Positions 15,761 through 28,571 of a stretch of 51,829 nt of DNA are shown in pieces. Location: contig JAISLQ010000026.1 of the NCBI GenBank assembly GCA_031290885.1, forward strand, positions 1 to 51,829. Direction: 5' to 3'. The position numbers and the translations under genes were made by a program. The stretch is from Acidaminococcales bacterium (lineage in GTDB: Bacteria; Bacillota; Negativicutes; Acidaminococcales; JAISLQ01). How positions within the stretch are numbered: position 1 is the stretch's first letter; every line of letters begins with the position of its first letter. Under the pieces are notes generated by a model. The model made no database searches and was not told the DNA's origin. It worked only from the letters and a program-made list of their open reading frames with translations.

Positions 15761-16339
15761 CTAACGCGCAAAAAAGACATTTAAGAACACAACCGCGCCC
15801 CATATGCAAAAAAACGCGAAAATAAGTCCGCAAAACAGCCATTTTATGATCGGCAAAAAAGAATGGCCGCGGTTTGTTTCCGCCACGAAAGAGCCGCCTC
15901 GTTTTTCCCAAAGGCTGTCCTGCCCGTAGGCTAAGCGCGCCTCCTCCAAGGCTTTGCCGCATTTTGCGGCAACGACCGAGCGCCCGTCCGTCAAATTGGC
16001 GGCCGTGCCGAACATGCCGATGGCCCGTCCAAACTCCCCGGCCCACATATAAAGCTCGCCTAAGGAAAACATCGCTTCGGCGTGCATTTCGCTGGCCGTT
16101 ATGTATAAGGTGTAATTGTCGCCGGCGGCCGCTTTTATTTTAGACAACAGCGGCCACATGTCAATTCGGTAAAACACCTCCGTTTGTTCGGCCGTTTTGA
16201 CGCCGGAAGAGCCCTTGGCCGGCTTTTTCTTGATCTGTTCGCCGACCTGCGCCTTTAATTTGTCTAACAGCCGCTTTGTTTCTGAAAGGATAGCGGTCGC
16301 GCTTTCCGGCTGCTTGCTGTAATCTTCTTCTACCGGCAC
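15761..16339 (-). CDS. Tail-anchored protein of unknown function with a TPR-like region
   Basis: I do not recognise this 192-residue protein. The first two thirds are soluble and helical. The region AEAMFSLGELYMWAGEFGRAIGMFGTAA (about residues 88-115, shown here only as a helical hairpin) has the size and residue pattern of one or two TPR-type repeats. A single hydrophobic helix near the C-terminus (about 165-188) would anchor it in the membrane with the bulk in the cytoplasm. There is no signal peptide. The start is a GTG at 16339 with GGGGAGGG about 9 bases upstream. It lies between rpoC and the aminotransferase gene on the same strand and has its own promoter candidate. Confidence 0.62.
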   Translation of the reverse strand: MPVEEDYSKQPESATAILSETKRLLDKLKAQVGEQIKKKPAKGSSGVKTAEQTEVFYRIDMWPLLSKIKAAAGDNYTLYITASEMHAEAMFSLGELYMWAGEFGRAIGMFGTAANLTDGRSVVAAKCGKALEEARLAYGQDSLWEKRGGSFVAETNRGHSFLPIIKWLFCGLIFAFFCIWGAVVFLNVFFAR

Positions 16340-16553: not shown

Positions 16554-20504
<3,951 letters not shown>

Positions 20505-24247: not shown

Positions 24248-24331
24248 TCATTACTTCACCCCTTGAAAATTCTTTTGCAAAAACGCGCCGCCCGGCCGGC
24301 AAACGGCCCCTTGCGGCGCAAAAACAAAAAA

Positions 24332-24361
24332 CAGGCTGTCTTTTCGCCAACAAACAACCTG
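24332..24361 (-). promoter_or_regulatory. Attenuator-like terminator in the rpoBC leader
   Basis: On the minus strand an 8-bp stem (24361-24354 with 24339-24332, one G-U pair) with a 14-base loop is followed at once by TTTTTTGTTTT (24331-24321). This is an intrinsic terminator lying inside the leader, about 105 bases after the predicted start site and 85 bases before rpoB. A consensus ribosome-binding site AAGGAGGA (24391-24384) lies just upstream of it with no ATG, GTG or TTG at a normal distance. Confidence 0.6.
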
Positions 24362-24472
24362 CACTCAACGATAGCGATAAAAATCCTCCTTTATAACAAG
24401 TCACTGTCCTCATTATCAGAAGCGCCGCGCCTCTTATAAAGCAGTAGATATTTATTTTCATTGCAAAAATTA

Positions 24473-24500
24473 ATTATAGCACTAATATTTTTTTTGTCAA
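24473..24500 (-). promoter_or_regulatory. Promoter of rpoBC
   Basis: On the minus strand: a consensus TTGACA (24500-24495), a 16-base spacer and a consensus TATAAT (24478-24473). It predicts a leader of about 220 bases before rpoB. Confidence 0.75.
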
Positions 24501-24543: not shown

Positions 24544-24572
24544 TTGGAATCCGGGGAAAAACCTGATATAAT
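24544..24572 (+). promoter_or_regulatory. Promoter of sepF
   Basis: TTGGAA (24544-24549), a 17-base spacer and TATAAT (24567-24572), about 50 bases before the sepF start. It diverges from the rpoBC promoter, with about 45 bases between the two -35 boxes. Confidence 0.6.
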
Positions 24573-24630
24573 TAAAAAGGGTTTATCCAGATTTTGCTGA
24601 CAGTATTGTCAAGAGGCGGTGAGTGCGGCC

Positions 24631-24996
24631 ATGGCAAGCGATATAATAAAAAAGATCGGCGGGGCCCTTGGGTTTGAGGACGAGGAAAACAAGCGCTTCG
24701 GCCCCTTGGCTCCGGTTAAAAGAACGCAGCTAAGGATAGTCGTGTACAGCCCCAAAGAATTTGGCGATGTCAGGTCTATGGCGGAATCCCTTTTGGAAAG
24801 GGCCGCCGTGCTCATTTGTTTTGAAAATGTCGACGACGATTTGTGCCGACGGATAATCGACTATATGAACGGGGTCGGTTACGCGCTGGATGCCAGGGTA
24901 GAGAAAATTTCCAACCGCCTTGTCATTTACGCGCCGGAAAACGCGGCGATAGAAAAAGAAATGCCGCCGCCGGCAAAATCTTTCAAATGGTTTTAA
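24631..24996 (+). CDS. sepF: Cell division protein SepF
   Basis: This 121-residue protein has the SepF/YlmF core: RIVVYSPKEFGDVRSMAESL, AAVLICFENVDD and the C-terminal YALDARVEKISNRLVIYAPEN. The N-terminal segment (residues 1-12, MASDIIKKIGGA) is the amphipathic helix that binds the membrane. SepF tethers FtsZ to the membrane, replacing or helping FtsA. I chose the ATG at 24631: GGTGAG lies 7 bases upstream, and it gives the expected helix at the very N-terminus. An in-frame GTG at 24619 has too short a spacing. It is a single gene between its own promoter and a terminator. Its usual ylmE/ylmG neighbours are absent. Confidence 0.93.
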   Translation: MASDIIKKIGGALGFEDEENKRFGPLAPVKRTQLRIVVYSPKEFGDVRSMAESLLERAAVLICFENVDDDLCRRIIDYMNGVGYALDARVEKISNRLVIYAPENAAIEKEMPPPAKSFKWF

Positions 24997-25003
24997 GCGT
25001 TAT

Positions 25004-25029
25004 AAAAAGGCCGCTTGACGGCCTTTTTT
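25004..25029 (+). terminator. Terminator of sepF
   Basis: A 10-bp stem (AAAAAGGCCG with CGGCCTTTTT) has a 5-base loop and ends in T6, starting 8 bases after the sepF stop. It is a classic intrinsic terminator. Confidence 0.85.
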
Positions 25030-25130
25030 GTCTTTCGGGCGCCGGCCGCGCTTTTCACCGGCGGGGTTGACGCCGCTTCGCCGCGTCCGCGCGGCCAAAC
25101 AAAAACTATTGGCAACAGCGGGGGGTTTTT

Positions 25131-28100
25131 ATGCCAGGTTTTGTTCATTTGCACGCGCATAGCCAATACAGCCTGCTGGACGGCGCCGCCCGCATCGACA
25201 AAATGATCGCGCGCGCCAAGGAACTGGACATGCCGGCCATCGCCATCACCGACCACGGCGTGATGCACGGCGTGATTGATTTTTATAAGGAAGCCGTCAA
25301 GCAGGGCGTCAAGCCCATCATCGGCTGCGAGATATATATGGCGGCGGGGGATCGCCGAAGCCGGACGCCGGCCGGCAATTACCACTTGATCCTCCTGGCC
25401 GAGGACAATACGGGCTATCACAATTTGATCAAGATTGTTTCGGCAGCCCAACTGGAAGGGTTTTACTACAAGCCGCGCGCGGACAAAGAACTCCTGCGCC
25501 GCCACAGCGAGGGGCTCATCTGCCTGTCCGCCTGCCTGGCCGGCGAAATACCGGCGAAAATACTGGCCGGCGACTATGGCGGCGCGCGCGCCGCCATAGA
25601 GGAATATATCGGCATTTACGGCAAAGACAATTTTTTTCTGGAAGCGCAGAACCATTTTTTGCCGGAAGACCGGAAGGTCAACGACGCCCTGCGGGGCTTC
25701 GCGCGCGAATACGGCCTCGGGCTTGTGGCCACCAACGATTCCCATTATATTGAGCGCGCCGACAGCGAGGCGCAGGACATACTTTTGTGCATACAGACCA
25801 ACAAGACCGTAATGGACGCCGACCGCATGAGGTTTGCCAACGACGAGTTTTACATTAAATCCGCCGCAGAAATGCGGGAGCTTTTTCCCGATTTGCCGGA
25901 TGCGCTGGAGAATACGCTTAAAATCGCGCAACGCTGCAACGTAAAGCTGGAGTTTGGCAGTCTGTCGCTGCCCGAATTCGCCGTGCCGGAGGGGGAGACG
26001 GCGGCGGGATTGCTGGCGCGGCTTTGCCGGGAAAGCCTGCCGCGAAAATATCCGGACGATGATGGCAAGATAGCCGGGGAGCGGCTGGCCTTTGAGCTTA
26101 AAACCATAAACAACATGGGCTATGACAGTTATTTTCTCATCGTTTGGGATTTTGTCAAATTTGCCCGCGAAAACGGCATAGCGGTCGGCCCGGGGCGCGG
26201 TTCGGCCGCCGGCAGCATCGTGGCGTATCTTCTGAACATAACCGGCATCGACCCGCTGAAATACGATCTTTTGTTTGAGCGTTTTTTAAACCCTGACCGC
26301 GTAAGCATGCCTGACATAGACATTGATTTTTGCTATGAGCGGCGGGGCGAAGTATTTGCGTACATAGTGGAAAAATACGGCAGCGACCGGGTGGCGCAAA
26401 TCGTTACTTTCGGGACGATGGCCGCCCGGGCGGCCATCCGCGATGTCGGGCGCGCCCTGAACATGCCTTACGGCGACGTCGATAAAATCGCCAGGCAAAT
26501 CCCCTACGAATTGGGCATATCGCTGGAAAAGGCGTTGGCCGCCAACAATGAGCTGCGCGATCTCACGCGCGATTTCCCCGAAATAGGCAAGCTCGTAAAC
26601 CTCGCCCGCGCCTTGGAAGGCACGCCGCGCCACCATTCCGTGCACGCCGCCGGGGTGGTCATCACGCCCCGGCCGCTCACCGATTTCGTGCCGCTCCTAT
26701 ATTCCGCCGATAACTTTGTCACTACCCAGTACGACAAGAACCGGCTGGAAGACATCGGCCTTTTGAAAATGGACCTTCTGGGGCTGAGGACCCTTACCAT
26801 CGTCGCCGACGCCCTGTCCATGATCGGGCAAAGCGGAAAAACAGCCATAACCACCGACGACATACCGCTCAAGGACAAGGCGGCGGCCGACATGCTCAAG
26901 CGCGGGGAAACCGCCGGCGTGTTCCAGATGGAATCGGACGGCATGACGCAATTGGTGAAAAATTTCGGGCCGGAAGAGTTCGGCGACATGATCCCCCTGG
27001 TTGCGCTTTACCGCCCCGGACCTTTGGGCGCGGGCATGTTGTCGGACTTTACCGACAGGCGGCACGGCCGGGCAAAGATTAGTTACCCGCACCCTTTGCT
27101 TGAGCCGATACTTAAAGACACTTTCGGCGTCATCCTCTACCAGGAGCAAGTCATGCGGATCGCGTCGGTACTGGCGGGCTTTACCCTCGCGCAGGCGGAT
27201 ATCCTGCGCAAGGCGATGGGCAAGAAGGATGCGCGGGCCCTGGCCAAACAGAAAGCGGCCTTTGTCGCGGGCGCGGCGAAAAATGCCGTGGGCGCGGCAA
27301 AGGCCGAGGAAATATTTTCCTTGCTGGAATATTTCGCCGGTTACGGCTTCAACAAGTCGCACAGCGCGGCTTACGGCCTGCTGGCCTGGCAGACCGCCTG
27401 GCTCAAGGCGCATTACCCGCGCGAGTTCATGGCGGCTACGCTTTCCAACACCAATGACAAAGTCGGCAAATATATAGAAGCGTGCCGGCACATGGGCATC
27501 AAAATACTGCCGCCGGACGTCAACGCCAGCGCCAGCACCTTTGCCGTGGACGGGGGCGGCATCCGTTTCGGGCTGGCCGCCGTGCAGCATGTCGGCGAAA
27601 CCGCCGTGGCGGCAATACTGAAAGCGCGCAAACAGGGCGGCGACTTTAGTTCCATAGTGGACTTTTGCCGACGGGTGGATTTGCGGACGGTCAACAAGCG
27701 CGTGCTGGAGAGCCTCATAAAATGCGGCGCTTTTGACCGCATGGGCAAGCGCTCGCAGCTTCTGGCCGTGCTGGAGGATGCCGTGGCGCTGGCCGGCCGG
27801 CAGCAGCGCGACAAAGCGAGCGGGCAACTCGGGCTTTTTGACAGCGACGCGACGGAGAGCGGCGCGGATCTGCCTCTGCCTGACCTTGAGGAAATGGCCG
27901 TGGAAATGATGCTGGCGGAGGAGAAAAACCTCATAGGCTTTTATTTGACGGCCCATCCGCTCGATCGCTACCGCGAGCAGTGGGAGACCCTCCGGCCAAT
28001 CGCGTCCCTTGGCGGCGGCGGGCACGAGGAAGGCGGAGCTTTAACGGAAACGAACGCAACGTGCGGCAACGGGCGCGCGCAAGACGGCGCCAAGGTGGAA

Positions 28101-28571
28101 GTGGGCGGAATCATAACCCAATGCAAAAGGATGAATACCAAAAAAGGCGATACCATGGCAACGCTGACGCTGGAAGATTTTACCGGGGATATCGAGGTGC
28201 TGCTTTTCCCGCAGACATTTAAGAAAGCGGCGAACTGCGCCGCTATCGATCAGGCGGTAAAAATATGGGGAAGCGTGCAAAGCGACGTGCGCGACGACGG
28301 CGCGCGGCTAAAGATCGTCGCCGACGCCGTGCTGCCCCTGGCCGGCCTGGCGCCGCCCCTCAAATTGCGGCTGCCCAACGGATTGGACAATCGCGCTTCC
28401 TATCTTAAAATTAAAGGCATACTCGCAAAATACGCGGGCGGATCGCCGGTGAGCATCGAATTGCCTTCAGGCCATACCATCCTGGCCGAACAGCGCTGCC
28501 GGGTGGACGCGGGCAGCCCCGGACTGCGCGGCGAGCTTTCCGCGCTCATCGGGGCGGAGAACATAGTATAA
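25131..28571 (+). CDS. dnaE: DNA polymerase III alpha subunit (DnaE)
   Basis: This 1146-residue replicative polymerase starts with a PHP domain (HLHAHSQYSLLDG, AITDHGVMHG, NDSHYIERAD, residues 5 to about 210). The palm follows, with the catalytic pair in SMPDIDIDF (Asp at about 394-398) and the third Asp in LLKMDLLGL (about 547). Later come FGVILYQEQVMRIA, the GYGFNKSHSAAYG segment, and an OB-fold near residue 1000 (GGIITQCKRMNTKKGDTMAT). The length fits the DnaE1 form. The PHP histidines look intact, so proofreading or metal binding in that domain is possible. The ribosome-binding site is poor (GGGGGG before TTTTTATG). No PolC gene is in the window, although Firmicutes often have one as well. 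Confidence 0.97.
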   Translation: MPGFVHLHAHSQYSLLDGAARIDKMIARAKELDMPAIAITDHGVMHGVIDFYKEAVKQGVKPIIGCEIYMAAGDRRSRTPAGNYHLILLAEDNTGYHNLIKIVSAAQLEGFYYKPRADKELLRRHSEGLICLSACLAGEIPAKILAGDYGGARAAIEEYIGIYGKDNFFLEAQNHFLPEDRKVNDALRGFAREYGLGLVATNDSHYIERADSEAQDILLCIQTNKTVMDADRMRFANDEFYIKSAAEMRELFPDLPDALENTLKIAQRCNVKLEFGSLSLPEFAVPEGETAAGLLARLCRESLPRKYPDDDGKIAGERLAFELKTINNMGYDSYFLIVWDFVKFARENGIAVGPGRGSAAGSIVAYLLNITGIDPLKYDLLFERFLNPDRVSMPDIDIDFCYERRGEVFAYIVEKYGSDRVAQIVTFGTMAARAAIRDVGRALNMPYGDVDKIARQIPYELGISLEKALAANNELRDLTRDFPEIGKLVNLARALEGTPRHHSVHAAGVVITPRPLTDFVPLLYSADNFVTTQYDKNRLEDIGLLKMDLLGLRTLTIVADALSMIGQSGKTAITTDDIPLKDKAAADMLKRGETAGVFQMESDGMTQLVKNFGPEEFGDMIPLVALYRPGPLGAGMLSDFTDRRHGRAKISYPHPLLEPILKDTFGVILYQEQVMRIASVLAGFTLAQADILRKAMGKKDARALAKQKAAFVAGAAKNAVGAAKAEEIFSLLEYFAGYGFNKSHSAAYGLLAWQTAWLKAHYPREFMAATLSNTNDKVGKYIEACRHMGIKILPPDVNASASTFAVDGGGIRFGLAAVQHVGETAVAAILKARKQGGDFSSIVDFCRRVDLRTVNKRVLESLIKCGAFDRMGKRSQLLAVLEDAVALAGRQQRDKASGQLGLFDSDATESGADLPLPDLEEMAVEMMLAEEKNLIGFYLTAHPLDRYREQWETLRPIASLGGGGHEEGGALTETNATCGNGRAQDGAKVEVGGIITQCKRMNTKKGDTMATLTLEDFTGDIEVLLFPQTFKKAANCAAIDQAVKIWGSVQSDVRDDGARLKIVADAVLPLAGLAPPLKLRLPNGLDNRASYLKIKGILAKYAGGSPVSIELPSGHTILAEQRCRVDAGSPGLRGELSALIGAENIV

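Follow-up and report, generated by a model that had tools for sequence, protein, structure and literature searches.

The setting of RNA polymerase amount is still incompletely understood, even in Escherichia coli (PMC4670729). In that bacterium, an attenuator between rplL and rpoB in the rplKAJL-rpoBC operon, acting as a partial terminator just before rpoB, is described as decoupling the expression of ribosomal proteins from that of the polymerase (PMC4670729). A structured cis element upstream of rpoB, the Lacto-rpoB RNA (RF01709), has been described in Lactobacillales (PMC2864571), and the rimP-leader places a terminator with a sequence-conserved stem and no visible antiterminator before rimP-nusA-infB, for which its authors favour the action of a protein, e.g. 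NusA (PMC2965389). The rplJL genes have a leader of their own, the L10 leader (RF00557), described as an attenuation leader in Bacillus subtilis (PMC10931766). Motifs from Veillonella and Negativicutes have also been described, in a paper whose main text does not mention rpoB (PMC8632094).

Here we analyse the rpoBC locus in a window of 51,829 nucleotides (the whole stretch of DNA studied), contig JAISLQ010000026.1 of an Acidaminococcales bacterium. Its near relatives overlap Phascolarctobacterium and Succiniclasticum, and we take them to belong to the order Acidaminococcales, class Negativicutes. The leader ahead of rpoB is most likely a diverged copy of a class-wide, previously undescribed rpoB attenuator RNA. 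As in the E. coli rplL-rpoB attenuator (PMC4670729), a terminator stands just before rpoB, where it would separate polymerase from ribosomal protein expression, its partial action being a prediction in our case; unlike the E. coli element, which lies inside one operon transcript, it follows a strong promoter of rpoB itself, sits in a leader of its own and has a stem sequence conserved in the class, a comparison of arrangement rather than one made with E. coli at the sequence level. With the Lacto-rpoB RNA (PMC2864571) it shares the position of a structured cis element upstream of rpoB; the RF01709 model (58 nt) was found in two Streptococcus loci (L101 and L103) and gave no match in any searched Negativicutes leader, window included. 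The rimP-leader (PMC2965389) is similar in being a terminator ahead of an operon of transcription genes, with a sequence-conserved stem and no antiterminator, but its stem is GGGc..gCCC and its gene a different one, whereas in one order the rpoB leader has, in addition, an upstream hairpin that covaries. RF00557 had no match above its gathering score in the rpoB leader and matched before rplJ only, in the window's genome at L132:4785-4928. A T-box, riboswitch or other known leader was discarded as well, since no Rfam 15 family reached its gathering score in the leader and lax thresholds returned chance-level matches only; the leader is a candidate RNA family. As a concept, attenuation ahead of rpoB is already known (E. 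coli; compare Lacto-rpoB), and this particular RNA is probably a new form of it: titles and abstract openings of the open-licence literature, a set without the 2017 survey of 224 RNAs, held no description of an rpoB leader RNA in Negativicutes or in general, and an earlier description is possible.

Genomic setting of rpoBC

The genes around the leader are the following.

16554..20504, minus strand: rpoC (RNA polymerase beta'), TIGR02386 (NCBIfam), 1856.8 bits
20522..24247, minus strand: rpoB (RNA polymerase beta), TIGR02013 (NCBIfam), 1782.9 bits, start codon ATG at 24247-24245
24619-24996, divergent from rpoB on its upstream side: sepF, Pfam SepF match
25131-28571, divergent from rpoB, beyond sepF: dnaE

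The original prediction had added that rpoBC in many bacteria follows rplJL instead. That part stood for this genome, where a different contig (C38) carries rplA, the L10 leader, rplJ, rplL and rsfS as a group, so that rpoBC is detached from rplJL; as a general contrast it proved incomplete, because 27 of the 48 order relatives with rpoB have rplL directly upstream of it and most of these nonetheless possess a separate rpoB promoter and leader. The leader is therefore no consequence of the separation of rplL from rpoB. One relative (L010) has rplL about 1.3 kb upstream of rpoB, and 20 of the 48 have no rplL in the sequence stretch covered, which in two cases is shorter than 300 nt. The window's genus is represented by one further genome (G001), in which no rpoB was found, making comparison with a close relative impossible.

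Several minor features of these regions may be recorded. In the window's genome (L132:4785-6569), the gene that comes after the L10 leader, rplJ and rplL is not rpoB but rsfS, which encodes the ribosome silencing factor. A promoter TTGGAA-17-TATAAT with TG at 24544-24572 (plus strand) faces sepF, back to back with that of rpoB, so that two strong promoters adjoin. The open frame 15761-16339 (minus) has no NCBIfam or Pfam match; the same is true of 24993-25931 (minus), which overlaps dnaE on the opposite strand and is unlikely to be a gene.

Promoter, leader and hairpins in the window

The leader region contains these elements, all on the minus strand and listed in the direction of transcription.

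24500-24473, minus strand: promoter TTGACA-16-TATAAT (TTGACA 24500-24495, TATAAT 24478-24473, spacer 16), TG extension before the -10, 12/12 consensus matches
24248..24466, minus strand: rpoB leader RNA, about 219 nt, predicted to start near 24466
24373..24450, minus strand: window-specific upstream stem-loop, -21.2 kcal/mol, 5/200 shuffles as good
24385..24389, minus strand: GGAGG, common to other Negativicutes leaders (UAUAAUGGAGGAUGAA) according to alignment A4 and the alignment of model R2 to the window
24362-24331, minus strand: attenuator hairpin (intrinsic terminator), GCAGGUUGUUU / AAGACAGCCUGU, 11 bp, -13.8 kcal/mol
24330-24321, minus strand: U-tract of the attenuator, UUUUUGUUUU, read from the sequence
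24286..24318, minus strand: GC-rich hairpin then UUUUU, -21.6 kcal/mol, possible second terminator just before the rpoB ribosome-binding site

The claim that rpoBC is read from its own promoter through a leader with a terminator was borne out by the 12/12 promoter, the leader of about 219 nt and the hairpin with its U-tract (24362-24321). Both the rpoB promoter and the leader hairpin are confirmed as real, with the firmer evidence for the promoter. When the 373-nt gap between sepF and rpoB was dinucleotide-shuffled 2,000 times, no shuffle contained a 12/12 promoter and 6 contained one with at least 11/12 matches. The whole leader folded more stably than its shuffles (z -3.2, 0/200 equal). A terminator at least as good arose in 7 of 200 shuffled whole leaders, so that the one in the window exceeds chance moderately; with the GC-rich hairpin 3' of the terminator removed, the figure was 1 of 200. 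Terminator-like sites overall were not above shuffles in a consensus scan (26 vs 25.3), which missed the window terminator because it allowed loops of 3-8 nt and the loop here has 10 nt.

The stem-loop at 24373..24450, with AGGAGGAU on its 3' side, occupies the place of the AGUGGUU and GAUGAA/UUCAUC hairpins of the relatives. The GC-rich hairpin (24318-24286) has the stability expected from its composition, with 26 of 200 shuffles equalling it, and was not seen in the relatives' leaders; it was also rejected as a genomic repeat, since beyond itself its own genome gave 16 short or weak matches (best E 0.037).

Conservation within Acidaminococcales

One proposed check was to look for the same structure in relatives, where promoter, leader length and terminator do recur; a hairpin without such conservation had been named as refuting the idea, and this outcome did not arise. 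Promoters with at least 10/12 consensus matches were found at similar distance from rpoB in 39 of the 49 order loci, and the TG extension in 42 of 49, the window being included in both counts; leaders measure about 175-230 nt in most order relatives. Of 43 order leaders, 42 had a terminator at least as stable as -8 kcal/mol, compared with 17 of 129 shuffles, a count that kept 43 of 49 leaders after exclusion of L044 and L049, whose leader is truncated or deleted, and of exact duplicates of the last 120 nt. The best hairpin that was counted in L035 differs from the conserved one, and L010 has the hairpin with a weak U-tract. In L044 (2507-2677) the terminator part of the leader is absent and the promoter and ribosome-binding site are retained, either a real loss or an assembly error.

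Upstream of the terminator, a hairpin with an AGYGG[UG]U loop was present in 48 of 48 order relatives. Covariation on alignment A2, whose 11 rows were not fitted to any structure, the structure itself being drawn from one row, scored 0.277 against 0.165 in shuffles (0/500 reached it); on the fitted alignment A5 the score was 0.453 against 0.177 (0/500). These scores refer to the whole structure, and the changes on both sides of a pair fall mostly within the AGYGG-loop hairpin. In one count 43 of the 48 order loci were matched, the unmatched ones being L030, L031, L033, L036 and L044.

A two-state antiterminator was searched for in the window and 10 relatives and rejected: early pairings of the terminator 5' arm differ in place among them and none is conserved. 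This lack, together with the decoupling role described for the E. coli rplL-rpoB attenuator (PMC4670729), would suit a constitutive attenuator, which removes a fixed fraction of transcripts and sets the ratio of polymerase to other products with no sensing involved. We consider such a device unlikely, as rpoBC has its own promoter, whose strength could already fix that ratio, and as a plain terminator needs neither a covarying upstream hairpin nor a loop kept in 48 of 48 relatives.

Several relatives fold the terminator within a longer stem that uses 3' sequence, which brings in a second possibility, that the leader works post-transcriptionally (through RNase III processing, stability or rpoB translation) and the U-tract is incidental; processing of the rplJL-rpoBC RNA in E. 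coli is indicated by the title of Barry 1980. However, L028, L033 and L036 lack the sequence that would make the 3' half of this long outer stem, which could not be recognised in the window either, and nearly all leaders have the hairpin followed by a U-tract, so we regard this explanation as very doubtful and retain transcription attenuation as the preferred function.

Conservation across Negativicutes

Outside the order, 50 of 53 class loci have CAAGG..CCTTG no farther than 420 nt upstream of rpoB (shuffles 9/1060); of the 53, 13 (L153-L165) had been picked via R1 matches and 40 came from rpoB matches, one or a few per family. Within the order the motif stood upstream of rpoB in 28 of 48 loci (shuffles 10/960). 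Many class leaders also have UAGUAAUAUAAUGGAGGAUGAA before the terminator. As a neighbour control, 58 loci with rplL adjacent were compared: the leader terminator had CAAGG in 40 and CAGGG in 10 of the 58, and the rplL terminator arm at the same loci had no common sequence, its commonest 5-mer occurring in 11 of 56. Covariation in the class-level alignment A4 was no greater than in shuffles, because both helices are nearly invariant in sequence, and the argument at class level is accordingly one of sequence conservation and position, not of covariation.

Two covariance models were used to examine how specific the element is. Of 200 class genomes, 41 had a match to R1, built from the rpoB leaders of the order, at E of at most 0.001, and 79 a match to R2 at E of at most 0.01. 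Every one of the 41 R1 matches, and every one of the 51 R2 matches that reached 44 bits, lay 23-352 nt upstream of rpoB on the same strand; R2 matches below 44 bits include other sites and opposite strands. The occurrence of the same RNA beyond the class was rejected, as R2 gave 11 matches on 299 phylum genomes, none above 42 bits, which were taken as background; two of the 11 matched genomes are themselves Negativicutes. Plain terminators before rpoB are somewhat enriched outside the class (27 of 73 loci vs 34 of 219 shuffles) and their sequences differ; this count kept 73 of 77 loci, L110 (same class) and three with less than 180 nt upstream being excluded. Judged by sequence, what is conserved ahead of rpoB is the putative promoter, leader, hairpin and U-tract across the order, and the terminator across the class. 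A class-conserved, rpoB-specific leader with a stem held in sequence, next to an rplL terminator that drifts, offers a compact and testable object for the control of polymerase levels.

A leader peptide seems unlikely: some class loci have a start-like AUG-GAG-GAU-GAA, but by eye neither starts nor frames are kept across relatives. A tRNA-like element was discarded, ARAGORN reporting no tRNA in 21 loci. Some class members (L155, L158) have a second hairpin, GGACUUGG..CCAAGUCUU-like, between attenuator and rpoB.

The window copy as a probable family member

The window leader gave the following match to the model of the order.

24321..24436, minus strand: full-length R1 match, diverged copy, 17.4 bits, E 0.045

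This match is weak, and it is the best R1 match in the window over both strands (2 x 51.8 kb), on the correct strand, with the next at 12.6 bits. R2 scored 15.2 bits on the window leader (E 0.37, second rank in the window), which is not significant alone, and the window's genome was absent among the R1 (E at most 0.001) and R2 (E at most 0.01) matches in the scans of 200 class genomes. The window has an intrinsic terminator a few tens of nucleotides before rpoB. Retained in it are the promoter, the leader length, UAUAAAGGAGGAU and the terminator, as well as GGAGGAU before the terminator (24389-24383). Changed are the AGUGGUU loop, the pattern AGYGG[UG]U being absent from the window leader, and the exact CAAGG...CCTTG, in place of which the stem reads GCAGG...CCUGU and is one base shorter; the GC-rich hairpin (24318-24286) is an addition.

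A hairpin with a U-run could occur in any AT-rich leader, so that the window copy might not be homologous at all; the failure of R2 to single it out and the 7 of 200 shuffles that attain its terminator are in line with this. We nevertheless judge non-homology rather improbable, given that the best R1 match in 2 x 51.8 kb fell on the rpoB leader, at full length and on the right strand, that UAUAAAGGAGGAU and the start of the GCAGG stem stand at matching places, and that promoter and leader length are as in the relatives. Membership of the window leader, as a diverged member, in the family of rpoB attenuator leaders is thus probable rather than proven.

Proposed mechanism

The reading we favour, with fair though far from complete confidence, is that the leader acts on rpoBC by transcription attenuation, with read-through probably tuned by a factor acting on conserved leader parts. 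RNA polymerase would start at the strong rpoB promoter and transcribe the structured leader; a fraction of the polymerases would stop at the hairpin and U-tract (24362-24321), and the remainder would continue into rpoBC. Since the cell needs rpoBC expression, termination would have to be incomplete; a partial stop at the U-tract is what the predicted structure most simply suggests. Our best inference is the one originally suggested, namely that premature termination sets the level of RNA polymerase.

The fraction that reads through would be adjusted by something binding the conserved parts of the leader. Given a stem conserved in sequence and the lack of a conserved antiterminator pairing, the regulator is more likely a protein than a classical two-state riboswitch; candidates that would act on the nascent RNA or the polymerase are NusA and RNA polymerase itself, through feedback on its synthesis. 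A bolder version, which we put forward as quite unlikely, makes the leader a dedicated RNA sensor that meters RNA polymerase throughout the class: polymerase, with or without NusA, would recognise the GCAAGG hairpin and the upstream leader and, when in excess, terminate its own genes, and the AGYGG-loop hairpin of Acidaminococcales would supply a second input, its UGGU pairing with the ACCA end of tRNA or the hairpin acting as a tRNA D-arm mimic.

In two order relatives, L030 and L031, the AGUGGUU hairpin uses for its 3' side the same stretch that forms the 5' arm of the terminator, and the terminator is far stronger (-21 to -24 kcal/mol). This overlap hints that in these two loci the AGUGGUU hairpin and the terminator are mutually exclusive folds.
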